IMG/VR virus record: IMGVR_UViG_3300045936_000177
Location: 1 to 20,081 of that record
DNA from: a virus
DNA: 20,081 nt
Direction: 5' to 3' (one strand)
In this document: positions 1 to 19,015 of the stretch, piece after piece
Position numbering within the stretch: the stretch's first letter is position 1
Layout: the number at the start of each line of letters is the position of its first letter
The notes under the pieces: model-generated
What the model was told of the DNA's origin: nothing
Database searches by the model: none
The model's input: only the letters and a program-made list of their open reading frames with translations
Made by a program: the position numbers and the translations under genes

Positions 1-600
1 GAAGGTGATGTCGGTCACGGGTGGTGTCCCTCCTTGGTCCGGCAGCTCCGGATAGACGGCGTTGCCGCGGGCGCAGACCTTCCCCGCGTATTTCGGGTCG
101 GTCGCCCAAGTCCCGGCGAGCTCAGCGACCGTCTCGGCCTGGGCGGTGTTGCCGTAGGCTTCGACGTAGGCGTCGTAGCGCGGATCGACGGCGCGGATCG
201 ACTGCCCCGTCACCCGGAACCAGAGCGACCCGGCGTCCGCTGGGCCCGTCGCGTAGACGAGAAGATGGGCAAGGTGCGATTGCGCCGACGCGGTGCCGTT
301 CGGCCAGCGGTGGGATTGCTCGTTCTGGGCCGGATCGCCCGTGATCCCGATGCCCGCCGGGTTGAGGCGTTCGACCCACCAGTGCGAGGACCACGGGCGG
401 CTCGCCATCGTCGTCTCGTGGACGCTCTGAGCGACGACGATGGACGCGTCGATGCCGAGGAGCGGTGCGAGGCGGTAGACCTCTTGCAGATAGGCGGTTA
501 CCTCGCCCAGACGCGCCGCGCCGTTCGAGGTCGCGTAGGCAATCGCCCTTGTCGCAGTCCCTCTCGTTGACGCGATAATTCGATCTGTCGTCCGCATCAT
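1..600 (-). CDS. Endolysin, N-acetylglucosaminidase-like (partial, 3' end outside window)
   Basis: Peptidoglycan hydrolase for host lysis. The frame stays open from ATG at 600 to the window edge (200 residues seen, C-terminus missing). Residues 48-90 resemble the glucosaminidase (FlgJ/LytG-type) fold: helix, then VVAQSVHETTMAS with E62 as the likely catalytic acid, then LNPAGIGITGDP matching the family's 'N-x-x-G-I' strand. HLLVYATG (110-119) and ATDPKYAGKV (166-175) match later family motifs. No signal peptide is visible, so export would rely on a holin, and several small membrane proteins lie just upstream. GGAG lies about 10 nt before ATG600, and a stop at 661-663 excludes a longer start. 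The first ~20 codons are AT-richer at third positions than the rest and appear to be a recoded replacement of the relic start at 1218-1271. Family call is good; exact bond specificity is inferred. Confidence 0.82.
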   Translation of the reverse strand, partial: MMRTTDRIIASTRGTATRAIAYATSNGAARLGEVTAYLQEVYRLAPLLGIDASIVVAQSVHETTMASRPWSSHWWVERLNPAGIGITGDPAQNEQSHRWPNGTASAQSHLAHLLVYATGPADAGSLWFRVTGQSIRAVDPRYDAYVEAYGNTAQAETVAELAGTWATDPKYAGKVCARGNAVYPELPDQGGTPPVTDITF

Positions 601-608
601 GGTAAAAT
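572..608 (+). promoter_or_regulatory. Promoter region of HNH gene 1
   Basis: Extended -10 element TGG-TAAAAT (TG at 600-601, hexamer 603-608) upstream of the HNH gene at 681. A second -10-like GATAAT lies at 574-579 inside GCGATAATTCG (572-582), an 11-mer repeated exactly in front of HNH gene 3. No convincing -35 is placed for either. The -10 at 603 abuts the endolysin start codon on the other strand, and the GATAAT copy lies inside its first ten codons. Confidence 0.5.
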
Positions 609-618
609 TGCTCCAACG

Positions 619-653
619 AAAAGACCCCGGCGCGTGGTAGGCACCGAGGTCTT
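619..653 (-). terminator. Hairpin in HNH1 leader, terminator-like on the minus strand
   Basis: Arms at 621-633 and 641-653 with a 7-nt loop. In minus-strand RNA they pair over 13 positions with two G-U wobbles and are followed by UUUU (622-619), the form of an intrinsic terminator placed just before the endolysin ribosome binding site. In plus-strand RNA the same arms pair with two C-A mismatches and sit near the 5' end of the HNH1 mRNA. Which role matters is not decided by sequence. Confidence 0.55.
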
Positions 654-680
654 CCGCACCTCAGCGAAAGGACCGCTGCG

Positions 681-1217
681 ATGCCCTCGAACGATAGCAT
701 CCCCCTCGGGTTGTGTCAGTGTGGGTGTGGTCGCACGACGACGCGGGCTAGTAAGACCAACGCGCGTCGCGGTGTTCGCAAAGGAGACCCGCTCAGGTTC
801 TTCCCTGGACACGGATCGCGAACCGGTGGTCGGCCCTACTATGCAGTCGATGACGAAACCGGATGTTGGGTGTGGCAACGATCGGTCAGCGGCGAAGGTT
901 ACGCACGGATCACAATTGGCGGGAAGACCGTCAGCGCTCATCGCTGGTATTACGAACAACGATTTGGCTCCATCCCGGAAGGGTATGAACTCGATCACAC
1001 CTGCCGCAATCGGGCATGCGTCAACCCCGACCATTTGGAGCCCGTGACCGGTGTCGAAAATATCCGGCGCGGTGACAGGACGCATCTGACCATGGACGAC
1101 GCACGGGCCATCCGCGCACTTCGCGGCAAGGCGTTTCAGCGCGAACTCGCCGCGAGATTCGCGGTAGATCAGACGACGATTAGCCGCATTCAACTCAGGA
1201 AGGTTTGGCGAGAATAG
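681..1217 (+). CDS. HNH homing endonuclease 1 (HNH_3 type with C-terminal HTH)
   Basis: Free-standing 178-aa endonuclease on the strand opposite the late operon. Residues 12-44 carry a Cys-rich N-terminal module (CQCGCG then RFFPGHG) common in phage HNH proteins. CWVWQ (62-66) and GYARI precede the HNH core: AHRWYYE (H87), ELDHTC (H106), CVNPDHL (N115, H118). The C-terminal ~40 residues form a helix-turn-helix (RELAARFAVDQTTISRI), a usual DNA-recognition module of homing enzymes. AAAGGA lies 9 nt before ATG. It sits between the 1268-1678 gene and the endolysin, and its stop codon directly abuts an 18-codon relic of the endolysin start on the other strand. Third positions are more mixed than in the structural genes, consistent with separate ancestry. 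Confidence 0.9.
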   Translation: MPSNDSIPLGLCQCGCGRTTTRASKTNARRGVRKGDPLRFFPGHGSRTGGRPYYAVDDETGCWVWQRSVSGEGYARITIGGKTVSAHRWYYEQRFGSIPEGYELDHTCRNRACVNPDHLEPVTGVENIRRGDRTHLTMDDARAIRALRGKAFQRELAARFAVDQTTISRIQLRKVWRE

Positions 1218-1271
1218 CGCGGCGGTGCCGCGGGCGGCGCTGCGGATGCGGTCGCTCGTCTTCATCGTCAT
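1218..1271 (-). pseudogene. Relic 5' end of the endolysin gene
   Basis: Eighteen open codons from ATG1271 read MTMKTSDRIRSAARGTAA and then run into the antisense of the HNH1 stop. They match the start of the working endolysin at 600 (MMRTTDRIIASTRGTA): 9 of 15 aligned residues are identical and most others conservative, yet 7 of the 9 identical residues use a different codon. The ATG overlaps the stop of the upstream gene as ATGA, the normal coupling in this operon, with GGGAG upstream. This is read as the original endolysin start, disconnected by insertion of HNH1. Confidence 0.75.
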
Positions 1272-1678
1272 GGCTTCGTGTCTCCCGTCCCGAACGGCGG
1301 CGTCGCCGTCTGCGTTGCGCCGATCATCGTCACCACCGCCGCGCCCTCCCGGATGCAGACCGCGCCCGGTTGCGGCGTCCCGCACGTGGGCAACGGCACC
1401 TCGGCTGTGGCGCTTGGCCATGAGCAGACCGATCCGCGGAACAACGTCACTTGACAGTCGGGTAATTCGGTCGCAGTCGGGTGCGGCGTCACGACGGCGG
1501 TCGGCGTCGCCGTCTCGGTCGCCGCCATCGGCACCCCGGTCACGACCACGATCCGCGCGGCTGCGGCGGTGGCAGGGAGCGGCAGCGGGTCGGTCAGCGA
1601 CGCGGCCACGCCCGCCACCAATGCCGAGGCCAGGGCCAGGGAGAAGACGATCGGCGGCAGGGGCGAGGGGCGATTCAC
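1268..1678 (-). CDS. Secreted or membrane-anchored lysis-region protein
   Basis: A 136-aa protein of unrecognised family. N-terminal residues ~9-28 (IVFSLALASALVAGVAASL) form one hydrophobic segment, a signal peptide or signal anchor. The rest is a Thr/Pro/Ala/Val-rich linker with four Cys (DCQ, VCSW, TCGT, VCIR) that could form two disulfides outside the membrane. GTG1678 is preferred because it overlaps the upstream stop as GTGA; TTG1687 in the same frame is an alternative. Its own stop overlaps the relic endolysin ATG. Position between a two-TM protein and the endolysin suggests a lysis accessory such as a spanin-like component, but no spanin signature is seen. Confidence 0.6.
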   Translation of the reverse strand: MNRPSPLPPIVFSLALASALVAGVAASLTDPLPLPATAAAARIVVVTGVPMAATETATPTAVVTPHPTATELPDCQVTLFRGSVCSWPSATAEVPLPTCGTPQPGAVCIREGAAVVTMIGATQTATPPFGTGDTKP

Positions 1679-2088
1679 GAGCACCAACCCCGCCGGCGCT
1701 CAATCCCGCTCCGCCGCTCCGGCCCCTGCCACGCCTCGCTGTACGCCGGCACATGGACCGCCATCCGTGGCCCCTTCCTCGCCCGGTTCATCTCCGCTGC
1801 GGTCCCGAGCGCGGTCCCGATCACCAGCACCCCGGATGAGGCGATGGCCGCCCGGTTGAGGATCGTCAGCCACGAGGGCATCGCGGACGCCCGGATCGCG
1901 TTGAGACAGGCGACCTCGTCCATCTCCCCCTGCCGCGGTCGGCACGCCGCCAGGTCGACGCCGCGGGCGAAGAGATAGGCAACGGCGAAGACGTAGCCGA
2001 GGACCGCGAAAAAGATGACGAGGGCGATGAACAGATCGCAGAGGGATCGTCCGAATCGCGTGAGACGGCGTCGCTCGGCAGCGCTCAT
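1675..2088 (-). CDS. Two-TM membrane protein, holin-like candidate
   Basis: A 137-aa protein with two predicted membrane helices: residues ~17-42 (SLCDLFIALVIFFAVLGYVF and on) and ~77-97 (TILNRAAIASSGVLVIGTAL). A short loop between them carries two Cys, and the C-terminal tail is charged and Arg-rich (GPERRSGIERRRG). ATG2088 overlaps the stop of the upstream small holin-like gene (ATGA) and has GGAGG 8-10 nt before it; the longer in-frame extension to 2256 is Arg/Pro-rich shadow sequence. With two small hydrophobic proteins next to an endolysin, this could be a second holin or an antiholin. No family is recognised. Confidence 0.6.
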   Translation of the reverse strand: MSAAERRRLTRFGRSLCDLFIALVIFFAVLGYVFAVAYLFARGVDLAACRPRQGEMDEVACLNAIRASAMPSWLTILNRAAIASSGVLVIGTALGTAAEMNRARKGPRMAVHVPAYSEAWQGPERRSGIERRRGWCS

Positions 2089-13872: not shown

Positions 13873-13899
13873 TCAGGCGGCGGCGGCGTAGGTCCGAAA
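13873..13899 (-). pseudogene. Relic 3' end of the major tail protein gene
   Basis: Minus-strand codons here encode QFRTYAAAA then TGA; the working major tail protein ends VQQETYAAAA then TAA at 14637. The shared T-Y-A-A-A-A-stop is encoded with a different codon at every one of the seven positions (ACC TAC GCC GCC GCC GCC TGA here; ACG TAT GCT GCG GCT GCA TAA in the gene). The relic begins right at the HNH2 promoter. This is read as the original gene end, cut off when HNH2 and a recoded end were inserted. Confidence 0.72.
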
Positions 13900-13900
13900 C

Positions 13901-13939
13901 TGGTACAATTGCGGCGTCAGTTTCCTGCTGACTTGCCGC
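13901..13939 (+). promoter_or_regulatory. Extended -10 promoter and leader hairpin of HNH gene 2
   Basis: TGG-TACAAT (13901-13909) is an extended -10. A stem follows at once: 13911-13920 pairs with 13928-13939 (5 + 5 bp with a 2-nt bulge, 7-nt loop). With a start near 13916 only the inner stem would be in the RNA. No -35 is evident, as usual for extended -10 promoters. Confidence 0.5.
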
Positions 13940-13962: not shown

Positions 13963-14631
13963 ATGGAGACGACGTGCCCCCAATGCCAGCGAGTTTTTGC
14001 GCTTCGCCCCTGCGACGTACGGAAGGGCAAGCGATTCTGTTCGCGTGCGTGCTACGACAAAAGCCGCGACGCTCAACCGAAGGCGGATAGGCAGTGCGTC
14101 TGTCGGCAATGCGGTGAGACGTTCCATCCGCATCCGAGCAGCCCCGGCATCTACTGCTCGTACAGGTGCCGCGCCGCGTTTCAGAAGGGCGAGCACCACA
14201 ACCGCTACCAGGGCGGTCAGGTGACGTTGACGTGCGAGCAATGCGGCAGGGAGTTCTCGGTCTATCCCAGCCGCACGCGGCGAAAGAGTCCGGCGAAGTT
14301 GTGCTCGAAGGCGTGCACCGCGCTCTACCAGCGCGGCCCGAACGCTCCAGGGTGGAAGGGCGGACGGTTTCTTGATCCGCAGGGATACGTCGTGGTCTAC
14401 GCCCCGAACCATCCCCGTGCCTTCAACAACCACGTCTACGAACACATCCTCGTCGCTGAGGCGACACTTGGCCGGTCTCTGATGCCCGGAGAGGAGGTCC
14501 ATCACGACGACGAAGTCAGGGACAACAACGACCCATCCAACCTCATCGTGCTGACCACGTCTGAGCATCAGAAACTCCATCGCGCCAGAGAGAAGCAGAA
14601 ACGACTTATTCAGTCGAATACTGCTACGTAA
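13963..14631 (+). CDS. HNH homing endonuclease 2 with three zinc ribbons
   Basis: A 222-aa protein. Three Cys4 zinc-ribbon modules stand in series: CPQC...CSRAC (5-30), CRQC...CSYRC (47-69), CEQC...CSKAC (91-118), probably for DNA binding. The HNH core follows: DPQGYVVVYAPNHP, HVYEHILVAEATLGRSL, EEVHHDD (H180/H181), PSNLIVL (N193) and EHQKLH (H202). ATG13963 has GGAG 10 nt upstream; the in-frame extension to 13810 crosses the promoter and is rejected. The stop lies 5 nt from the opposing stop of the major tail protein. It is flanked by the relic (left) and recoded working end (right) of that gene, pointing to insertion near the gene's 3' end. Confidence 0.9.
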   Translation: METTCPQCQRVFALRPCDVRKGKRFCSRACYDKSRDAQPKADRQCVCRQCGETFHPHPSSPGIYCSYRCRAAFQKGEHHNRYQGGQVTLTCEQCGREFSVYPSRTRRKSPAKLCSKACTALYQRGPNAPGWKGGRFLDPQGYVVVYAPNHPRAFNNHVYEHILVAEATLGRSLMPGEEVHHDDEVRDNNDPSNLIVLTTSEHQKLHRAREKQKRLIQSNTAT

Positions 14632-14636
14632 ACGGC

Positions 14637-15170
14637 TTATGCAGCCGCAGCATACGTCTCCTGTTGCACCCTTGAGAGGAGCACACCCGAGATCGCCACG
14701 CCCTCGAAGTCGAGGCTCGGCTCGTCCCAGGCGTCGCCCGAGAGTTCTTCGGCGGGACCGCTCGTCACGAGCAGCTTCTTGAGGTTGACCTGGTAGCCCT
14801 CGCCGGAGACCGCCCGGTTGAACGTCGTCGCCGTCGCCTGAAAGTAGGTCGAGCCCGCCGACGCGCTTTCGTCGAGGGTGTTGAGTTCGGTCGTCCCCGT
14901 CCCGGACGGCACCACCGACCCGCCGACCATCACGGCGAGGGCCGCCAGCGGCACCGAGCCGATCGTGATCGATCCCGTCAGCCGCTTGGGGAGGCGGACG
15001 ATCGCGATCGTCGTGTTGTCGCCGGTCTGCTCGTCGGAGTCGGACTCGACATCCCAACTGATCGACTTGGAGCCGTAGACGTCGACGTTGCTGCCCGGCG
15101 TGTCGCCGGTCAGCAGCGCGACCTTGAGGTCTTCGAGTCCGCGGGGGACCACTTGCGTCGTCAGGGCCAT
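14637..15170 (-). CDS. Major tail protein
   Basis: A 177-aa protein of the size of siphovirus tail tube subunits, encoded between the neck genes and the chaperone/tape measure pair. The beta-rich pattern fits a tube protein: RGLEDLKVALLTGDTPGSN, VDVYGSKSISWDVESDSDEQ (a loop and strand motif common to tube proteins), TIAIVRLPKRLTGSITIGSV, YFQATATTFNRAVSGEGYQV, and SLDFEGVAISGVLLSRVQQE. GGAGG lies 5 nt before ATG15170, which follows the preceding stop by one base. The last codons (TAT GCT GCG GCT GCA TAA) depart from the GC-ending habit of the gene and look recoded. Confidence 0.85.
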   Translation of the reverse strand: MALTTQVVPRGLEDLKVALLTGDTPGSNVDVYGSKSISWDVESDSDEQTGDNTTIAIVRLPKRLTGSITIGSVPLAALAVMVGGSVVPSGTGTTELNTLDESASAGSTYFQATATTFNRAVSGEGYQVNLKKLLVTSGPAEELSGDAWDEPSLDFEGVAISGVLLSRVQQETYAAAA

Positions 15171-17726: not shown

Positions 17727-18143
17727 CTACCATCCTTCCTGGAATTGCCAGTCGTACGGGCGCCGGTACTCCGGCGTCGTGTCCCCGCCGCGCGTCGGCT
17801 TGGAGACCGAGGTCTGCCCGCTCGCCGTCGCGGCCGCGATCCTCTTCGTCAGTCCCGCGATCAGGTCTGTCAGGGCCTTGACTCGATTCTGCCAGGCGAC
17901 GCGGGTCGCGTCGTCGCCGTAGCTGGTCGGGCTTTGGGCCACCTTCGCCAGCGCCGCCCTGGCGCTGACGAGCAGCGCCGCTTCCTCGGTCGCCTCGGCG
18001 GCCAGGATCGCGAGGTAGGTCTCGTCCTGGAGCCACGCCCCGGACTCGCCCGTCTCCGGATCGATCTCGACCGCGGTGTCTCCCACGGCGAGACGAATCC
18101 TATCGAGTGCGGTGCCGAGTCCGGGATCGAAGGTCGCGCTCAT
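17727..18143 (-). CDS. Head-tail connector protein (gp6/gp15-like adaptor)
   Basis: A 138-aa protein, first gene after the capsid gene. It opens MSATFDPGLGTALDRIRLAV with GDTAVE, then helices typical of phage adaptor proteins: LQDETYLAILAAEATEEAAL, VSARAALAKVAQSPTSYGDD, and AWQNRVKALTDLIAGLTKRI, ending with an aromatic tail (YDWQFQEGW). The Ala-rich multi-helix plan, size and place fit the connector under the portal. ATG18143 is chosen because the longer TTG18200 start falls inside the hairpin of the HNH3 leader; a GGGG stretch precedes ATG. A separate frame ends in TGA overlapping this ATG, as if an upstream gene once ended here. Confidence 0.68.
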   Translation of the reverse strand: MSATFDPGLGTALDRIRLAVGDTAVEIDPETGESGAWLQDETYLAILAAEATEEAALLVSARAALAKVAQSPTSYGDDATRVAWQNRVKALTDLIAGLTKRIAAATASGQTSVSKPTRGGDTTPEYRRPYDWQFQEGW

Positions 18144-18151
18144 GTCGTAGC

Positions 18152-18184
18152 CCCGAATCCCGCAGAGATATGCGATAATTCGGG
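18152..18184 (+). promoter_or_regulatory. Promoter of HNH gene 3 with flanking inverted repeat
   Basis: Extended -10 TGC-GATAAT (TG 18171-18172, hexamer 18174-18179). It lies within GCGATAATTCG (18172-18182), identical to the HNH1 upstream sequence. CCCGAAT (18152-18158) and ATTCGGG (18178-18184) form a 7-bp inverted repeat enclosing the promoter, a possible operator. Confidence 0.5.
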
Positions 18185-18190
18185 CACGCG

Positions 18191-18220
18191 AAAAGGCCAA
18201 CGCGCGGGAACGCGTTGGCC
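18191..18220 (-). terminator. Perfect hairpin in HNH3 leader, intrinsic terminator on the minus strand
   Basis: Perfect 10-bp stem (18195-18204 with 18211-18220) and 6-nt loop. On the minus strand it is followed by TTTT (18194-18191), a good intrinsic terminator form between the capsid gene and the rest of the operon. On the plus strand it sits a few bases after the HNH3 start site, as in HNH1. Confidence 0.62.
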
Positions 18221-18262
18221 GGATCGCACCCTCATCCGGCCTGTTAGGGAGGTCAGAATCCG

Positions 18263-19015
18263 ATGCGCCAGAAGCGTACCAGTCGTCGTCCCCTCATTGC
18301 TCGCGTCTGTGAGCGATGTGGTGTTGAGTTCATGGCGTGGCAAAGCAAGGTGGATGTGGGCGGAGCGCGCTTTTGCGGTTACGCCTGTTGGCTCGAACAC
18401 AGACGACAGCAAACGGTCGAATGCGCCTGTGAGCAGTGCGGCAAAGCGTTCACCGTGGGGGCGGCGACGTTCGCCAAGCGCGGCGCACGCTACTGCGGAC
18501 GCCGCTGCGCGACTCTGGCGGCAATCACGCCGTTGCGCGATCGGTTCTGGACAAGGGTCAACAAGACCGACACCTGTTGGTTGTGGACGGGGAGCACCGC
18601 CGGACAGAGCGGATACGGCGTGATTGGCATCGGCCCACGCGGTGCCGGGAAGATTTACACCCACCGGCTCTCCTACGAGATCCACGTCGGACCGATCCCC
18701 GAAGGGATGCGGGTCTGCCACAACTGCCCTGAGGGCGACAATCCCCTTTGCTGTAACCCCGCGCACCTGTTCCTTGGCACCGATGCCGACAACGCCGCCG
18801 ACAAAGTTGCAAAGGGAAGGCAGACACGCGGAGAGTCGAACGCCTCCACAAAGCTGACCGAAGCGCAAGCCAGGACCGCCCTGTCGATCGACACCAGCCA
18901 GCGCGGAGCCGTCGCCAAACTCGCACGCGAATTCGGCGTCAGTCACGCGACGATTTGTGATGTCATTAGCGGCAGGACGTGGAAGCATCTGCGTCCAGAC
19001 CCTTCTCTTGGCTAA
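18263..19015 (+). CDS. HNH homing endonuclease 3 with two zinc ribbons and HTH
   Basis: A 250-aa protein. Two Cys4 modules: CERC...CGYAC (16-42) and CEQC...CGRRC (56-82). Then CWLWTG...GYGVI (105-120) and the HNH_3-type core: THRLSYE (H134), VCHNC (H153), CCNPAHLFLG (N165, H168), followed by the usual DNAADKVAKGR tail. The C-terminal helix-turn-helix (AKLAREFGVSHATICDVISG, then RTWKH) resembles that of HNH1, suggesting a shared origin. GGGAGG lies 10 nt before ATG. It stands between capsid and connector genes on the opposite strand. Its TAA overlaps the capsid TAG by two bases, leaving no intergenic space. Confidence 0.92.
   Translation: MRQKRTSRRPLIARVCERCGVEFMAWQSKVDVGGARFCGYACWLEHRRQQTVECACEQCGKAFTVGAATFAKRGARYCGRRCATLAAITPLRDRFWTRVNKTDTCWLWTGSTAGQSGYGVIGIGPRGAGKIYTHRLSYEIHVGPIPEGMRVCHNCPEGDNPLCCNPAHLFLGTDADNAADKVAKGRQTRGESNASTKLTEAQARTALSIDTSQRGAVAKLAREFGVSHATICDVISGRTWKHLRPDPSLG

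Follow-up and report, generated by a model that had tools for sequence, protein, structure and literature searches.

Two free-standing HNH endonuclease genes of a phage contig lie between stranded and diverged versions of the gene ends beside them

Gene ends flanking HNH1 and HNH2

The window analyzed here, 20,081 bp long, makes up an entire IMG/VR contig (IMGVR_UViG_3300045936_000177). The structural genes of this phage are on the minus strand, and three free-standing genes encoding endonucleases of the HNH_3 type, here called HNH1, HNH2 and HNH3, are on the plus strand (Table 1). This article is concerned with HNH1 and the endolysin gene, whose start is found in two versions, one on each side of HNH1, and with the comparable arrangement at HNH2.

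HNH1 separates a stranded endolysin start (1271-1218, minus strand) from the start in use (600). Read from ATG1271, the stranded version is M T M K T S D R I R S A A R G T A A, 18 codons that reach the end of HNH1, and its ATG overlaps the stop codon of the preceding gene as ATGA. The working version from ATG600 reads M M R T T D R I I A S T R G T A T R A I. In the aligned block (1265-1221 against 597-553) 9 of 15 residues and 24 of 45 nucleotides (53%) are identical, and seven of the eight shared residues other than Met are spelled with another codon. The original prediction, which was made from the sequence of the window, had described these two versions of the N-terminus, the seven recoded residues, and the stranding of the upstream copy, coupled to the preceding gene and running into HNH1; all of this can be read directly. 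A small correction is that the Met residues in the alignment are encoded by the second ATG in either copy (1265 and 597), not by the first. The match between the two starts scored 47, and the best of 504 other 150-bp windows from this contig scored 33. When the shared residues were searched for as a codon-degenerate pattern, there were two matches in the window, none in shuffled sequences, and none elsewhere in IMG/VR.

HNH2, which was not part of the earlier observation, has the major tail protein gene on one side and the next gene on the other, and thus presents the case of a gene 3′ end. The working end of the tail protein gene (14666-14637) reads CAA CAG GAG ACG TAT GCT GCG GCT GCA TAA. 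Across HNH2, just before the next gene, the stranded end (13902-13873) reads CAG TTT CGG ACC TAC GCC GCC GCC GCC TGA. The two agree in 7 of 9 residues and in the stop, and all eight shared codons, the stop included, differ. Their match score was 31 compared to a null maximum of 30 when no positional constraint was applied, and one of the ends is rich in alanine. In a degenerate search of IMG/VR the tail-end motif was found only in another contig of the same phage, where it occurs twice, once on each side of HNH2; this independently assembled contig (L003/L011) carries HNH2 and both tail protein ends. The arrangement is therefore not restricted to gene starts, nor is it an artefact of a single assembly. 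Near HNH2, at ~13930, the peptide QQETDAA in another frame also resembles the working tail protein end.

Table 1. Positions of the HNH genes, the gene ends beside them and neighboring features in the window
Feature	Position	Strand	Basis
HNH1, free-standing HNH_3 endonuclease gene, antisense to structural genes	681..1217	+	PF13392 6.4e-12; phrog_826 1.1e-34
HNH2, free-standing HNH_3 endonuclease gene	13963..14631	+	Profile match, HNH_3 above cut-off
HNH3, free-standing HNH_3 endonuclease gene; stop overlaps capsid stop	18263..19015	+	HNH_3 above cut-off
Endolysin gene (glucosaminidase domain), runs past contig end	1..600	-	PF01832 1.7e-07
Putative replacement (recoded) start of working endolysin	541..600	-	GC3 0.55, HNH-like codons
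Segment from HNH1 to working start; ribosome-site-like GGAG before ATG600	601..680	-	Read from sequence
Stranded native endolysin start, 18 codons, ATGA-coupled to preceding gene	1218..1271	-	GC3 1.00, phage-like codons
Gene preceding endolysin; stop overlaps stranded start	1268..1687	-	Read from sequence
Major tail protein gene	14637..15170	-	phrog_4971 1.1e-09
Putative replacement 3′ end of major tail protein gene (QQETYAAAA*)	14637..14666	-	Sequence comparison, codon usage
Stranded native 3′ end of major tail protein gene (QFRTYAAAA*)	13873..13902	-	Sequence comparison
Capsid gene end beside HNH3, HNH-like codons	19012..19050	-	Codon usage; stranded partner not found

Codon usage of the stranded and working ends

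The two versions of each gene end can be distinguished by the G+C content of third codon positions (GC3), which ranges from 0.77 to 0.94 in the phage genes and from 0.64 to 0.75 in the HNH genes. The stranded pieces have phage-like codons, with values of 1.00 for the endolysin and 0.90 for the tail protein. The working ends beside HNH1, HNH2 and HNH3 have values of 0.55, 0.55 and 0.58, which are HNH-like and fall in the lowest 0.5%, 0.2% and 0.6% of phage-gene windows. Because the codon usage of the working ends resembles that of the HNH genes while the stranded ends are phage-like, the working ends most likely arrived together with the HNH genes. With the pairs of phages described below, codon usage supports the prediction that HNH1 interrupts the endolysin start and that a replacement start came along with it. 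The recoding itself is also real, but it resembles what would be expected if the diverged end of a homologous gene had been brought along from a previous host phage, and it need not have been selected codon by codon.

The codons TTA, CTA and TCA are absent from all three HNH genes, so that the in-phase antisense frame is open throughout each of them (minus strand, 1271-597, 14637-13873 and 18988-18140). Across HNH1 the open frame begins with the stranded ATG1271 and is closed by a TGA overlapping the working ATG600. The one across HNH3 begins at ATG18988, and its closing TGA overlaps the start of the following gene at 18143; that across HNH2 is in frame with the stranded tail protein end. About six such codons would be expected (9.3 x 0.67, corrected for the bias of similar HNH genes), compared to none observed; 7 of 46 HNH genes of similar GC3 likewise lack them. 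An open antisense frame might allow ribosomes translating the structural message to pass through the insert and reach the next gene, a post hoc suggestion. GC-rich hairpins followed by TTTTCG on the minus strand (601-680 and 18143-18262) adjoin the 5′ ends of HNH1 and HNH3; a terminator scan did not call them. Among other contigs, L006 is without HNH2 and HNH3. The gap between the capsid gene and the next structural gene is about 560 bp in the distant relative L007 (4830-5397), compared to about 10-30 bp in L005 and L006. A search of the PDB with HNH1 returned only spurious matches to ELYS.

Published phages with and without an HNH gene

Published phages provide five pairs in which one member has an HNH gene and the other does not; they were taken from the phages that matched best and had usable relatives, and do not form a random sample. 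In all five the gene end on the HNH side is replaced or recoded, in flanks that are mostly 92-100% identical and about 84% identical in the weakest pair.

The fullest comparison comes from the ghunaviruses. In gh-1, phiPSA2 and MR2, which have no HNH gene, the SSB gene is followed directly by that for endonuclease I, which begins MAYAGPKGAR.GAFRSGLED. In Ep017, Pf1, Ep022 and P413 an HNH gene begins at the endonuclease I start and ends inside a new start, M...GPRNARVGAFRSGLED. Over the first 27 codons of endonuclease I the phages with HNH are 74-95% alike, compared to 60-69% with those lacking it, while codons 100-148 follow the genome background (Ep022 with gh-1, 100%; P413 with MR2, 91%). 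Among the first 24 codons, 12/16 and 11/17 shared residues are recoded, compared to 0/23 in an HNH-free control pair. Two diverged HNH genes occupy this same site between SSB and endonuclease I (L013, about 2010-2493; L115, about 907-1330), and each starts on the native start codon of endonuclease I. In the ghunaviruses the replaced endonuclease I start travels with HNH across genome backgrounds. The HNH-free members keep the native start, the opposite of the outcome that the original prediction had named as speaking against it, namely HNH-free relatives with only the replacement type of start; this site is analogous to that of HNH1 and is not HNH1 itself.

Xanthomonas phage DoCa2 is ~95% identical to DoCa4 and DoCa9. 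The last 60 nt of its primase gene, beside HNH, are 62% identical to theirs and the sequence beyond is 95-100% identical; helicase codons 2-6 are TCA CTT GAT CTA ACC in DoCa2 and TCA TTA GAC TTG ACA in DoCa4 and DoCa9. The cluster J Mycobacterium phages Dove and Redno2 are 92.5% identical up to a point within the primase gene. Next come a diverged 3′ part and HNH; beyond them the phages are 98.6% identical, beginning with TCA TGA, the native last codon and stop, which is now the end of HNH. Rhizobium phages N3_2 and I3_18 are 98.7% identical, and the gene start beside HNH is replaced and partly recoded. Corynebacterium phi674 and phi673, with a background of 84%, form a weaker and less clear case. 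The native end is nearer than the replacement end to the element-free relatives in the ghunavirus, DoCa and cluster J comparisons, and presence/absence polymorphism at the insertion site was seen for related HNH genes in other phages. In these phages the HNH gene and the replaced gene end move together, and the empty sites can be seen.

Further HNH_3 loci

HNH_3 loci were also gathered from IMG/VR and examined for a gene end on one side that is repeated across HNH. Unanchored six-frame comparison of the flanks was underpowered in GC-rich DNA, and a gene-aware test was therefore used. Since z values of 3 to 5 were also reached in this test by chance-looking pairs, small cases were judged by start or stop anchoring as well as by score.

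Five more loci with a stranded and a replacement end were found. The longest copies are in L035, at the end of a phospholipase-D-like gene with an antisense HNH (24/30 residues), and in L053, at a radical SAM start adjoining the CxxxC motif (17/28 residues); both are far above the null, and both gene names were read from the sequence. In L095 the stranded start, MPEITFRLPG, still overlaps the end of the upstream gene, the working start, MPDLTFRLPG, overlaps the HNH stop, and HNH abuts both copies. In L050 a dUTPase ends in ERQNNGY*, and the native ERQVNGY* is now the C-terminus of HNH; in L051 a gene named hydrolase-like from its sequence ends in EARAAGVCA*, with the native EARAAGVAF* as the HNH C-terminus. 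L050, L051 and HNH2 are short cases that rest partly on the stop-codon anchor. On inspection, L094, L026 and L058 were judged to be paralogous or chance similarities. The native dUTPase end also forms the last residues of the HNH protein in both dUTPase-HNH pairs, L050 (2418-3606) and L015 (1369-2582, Caldibacillus phage CBP1), which retain a stop/start overlap with the next gene.

Proposed mechanism

It is likely, in our judgment, that HNH1 is a free-standing homing endonuclease gene that is mobile, and that the unit which moves also contains a replacement end for the invaded gene. HNH1 would have landed within the first codons of the endolysin gene, leaving the native start (1271-1218) stranded and still coupled to the preceding gene, and the endolysin would now begin at the diverged start (600) that HNH1 brought with it. 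In the major tail protein gene, HNH2 would have acted likewise on the 3′ end. The replacement, most likely the matching end of a homologous gene in a previous host phage, would keep the protein working. As its bases differ, it should escape cutting, while the stranded native piece could serve as homology beyond the cut during repair of the recipient.

We infer that the cut site lies within the native end and that the replacement resists cutting. The limitation of recoding to ~60 nt beside HNH in DoCa2 and N3_2 suggests a nearby cut site. The HNH gene, traveling with a diverged and probably cut-resistant gene end, resembles the fungal elements discussed below. The empty site of HNH1 presumably looks as predicted, with 1271-1218 reading directly into the remainder of the endolysin gene.

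The broader proposition is that phage HNH genes commonly move as an endonuclease together with a cut-resistant terminus of the invaded gene, which may be called terminus-carrying homing, a convergent counterpart of the mobile open reading frames (ORFs) of fungal mitochondria. We regard its chances as evenly balanced. If true, it would explain the presence of HNH genes at gene ends and the mosaic gene ends beside them, accounting for local mosaicism near HNH genes. It would also offer a mechanism by which selfish endonuclease genes enter essential phage genes harmlessly and become self-immune. It predicts that the cut sites are in the native gene ends, and the cultured pairs gh-1/Ep017 and DoCa4/DoCa2 are open to testing.

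Alternative explanations

Several points weigh against the proposal for HNH1. A relative that lacks HNH1 and covers the endolysin was not found when the endolysin protein was compared with IMG/VR, GTDB genomes and GenBank phages; the tail protein, capsid alignment and degenerate end patterns led only to contigs of the same phage that stop short of the endolysin or to distant relatives, and a 49.9-kb relative behind L007 gave no endolysin match. A stranded capsid partner for HNH3 was looked for in the contig and not found. In the seven cases pooled, 53 of 80 shared codons differ, close to the expectation for independent codon draws; recoding is thus no higher than saturated divergence would give, and by itself does not prove selection for resistance. 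The divergence in both Ep017 and Dove reaches past the immediate gene end, as would also result from simple co-conversion.

Such co-conversion is the alternative that has to be considered most closely. HNH1 would have entered from a diverged phage by homologous recombination along with its flanks, and the replaced ends would be mosaic tracts that are passive and protect nothing. For T4 endonucleases such co-conversion of flanking sequence is well documented (PMC2988022), in Dove, Ep017 and Ep022 the gene is diverged for 200-400 nt, and recoding at the saturation level is consistent with it. We nevertheless consider it unlikely. Two-sided homologous exchange would leave no stranded native end alongside a second copy, such as is seen at HNH1, HNH2, L035, L053, L095, L050 and L051, the change in DoCa2 and N3_2 is limited to ~60 nt beside HNH, and in ghunaviruses two diverged HNH types, in two backgrounds, are accompanied by the same replaced start. 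If HNH1 and HNH2 were instead antisense endonuclease genes within self-splicing introns, the stranded and downstream pieces would be exons and the second copy incidental. The capsid gene of phage LittleE has an intron whose endonuclease gene is antisense (PMC3706429), and joining 1271-1218 to about 540 would restore the protein. However, no intron family in Rfam was matched at E values up to 1, and the non-HNH sequence left for an intron is only about 100-135 nt, so that the geometry of the flanks does not accommodate one. An intron would have no use for a second end that is in frame and conserved at the protein level, and HNH abuts both copies in L095 and starts on the native start codon in Ep017, all of which makes introns very improbable.

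Still less probable is that the gene end was duplicated in tandem long ago and that one copy then drifted neutrally, which would account for the similar peptides on both sides of each HNH. The protein has been kept while synonymous sites are saturated, which implies that both copies were long under selection as working ends; moreover, the copies differ in codon composition, one being phage-like and the other HNH-like, and a single native end is present in the HNH-free ghunaviruses, DoCa4/DoCa9 and Redno2. As for chance similarity, the blocks are short (15 and 10 residues) and the alanine-rich tail end barely exceeds its null maximum. The null scans, the pattern scan across IMG/VR, the recurrence at HNH1 and HNH2, the long, unambiguous copies in L035 and L053, and the phage pairs with and without HNH leave chance with hardly any probability at all.

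Comparison with known systems

In the literature searched, which did not extend to many subscription papers, no description was found of phage HNH genes that carry a replacement gene end; the original prediction, which knew of none for free-standing phage HNH genes, agrees with this. Free-standing endonucleases of the seg and mob families in T4 are similar in that they are near essential genes and their flanking sequences are co-converted, but their cut sites are reported to be hundreds to thousands of bases away, the insertions are intergenic, and a stranded native end with a replacement end is not described there (PMC2988022). In phage Aeh1, mobE is a free-standing HNH gene inserted in a coding gene, nrdA, which unlike the genes considered here is split into two working polypeptides with no replacement end supplied (PMC2988022). 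The nearest hint comes from mycobacteriophage Omega, in which the acquisition of HNH next to lysin A gave the neighboring gene a new 3′ end. This was explained by a repair error or a distant donor, with no proposal of recoding or of a replacement function (PMC3706429).

The closest likeness is to the mobile ORFs of fungal mitochondria that carry a foreign gene terminus, found in atp6 of Allomyces macrogynus and in atp6, atp9, cox2 and nad3 of Glomus (PMC3630166). The original prediction had likened its logic to such elements, and the interrupted gene ends, in-frame diverged replacements and stranded native ends at HNH1 and HNH2 bear out the likeness. In the fungal elements, too, an endonuclease ORF is inside a gene end, with a diverged in-frame replacement end and a stranded native end, and the protein is conserved while the bases differ (PMC3630166). 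The fungal endonucleases are of the LAGLIDADG type and mitochondrial (PMC3630166), whereas those considered here are HNH_3 proteins of phages, which affect gene starts as well as ends, are often antisense, and replace stretches of about 10-40 codons. The arrangement at HNH1 and HNH2 thus works like a fungal mobile ORF but is not a member of that class, because it involves HNH_3 in a phage contig and not LAGLIDADG in a mitochondrial genome. Co-conversion as in T4 gives diverged flanks with no stranded duplicates (PMC2988022); the fungal mobile ORFs give both (PMC3630166).
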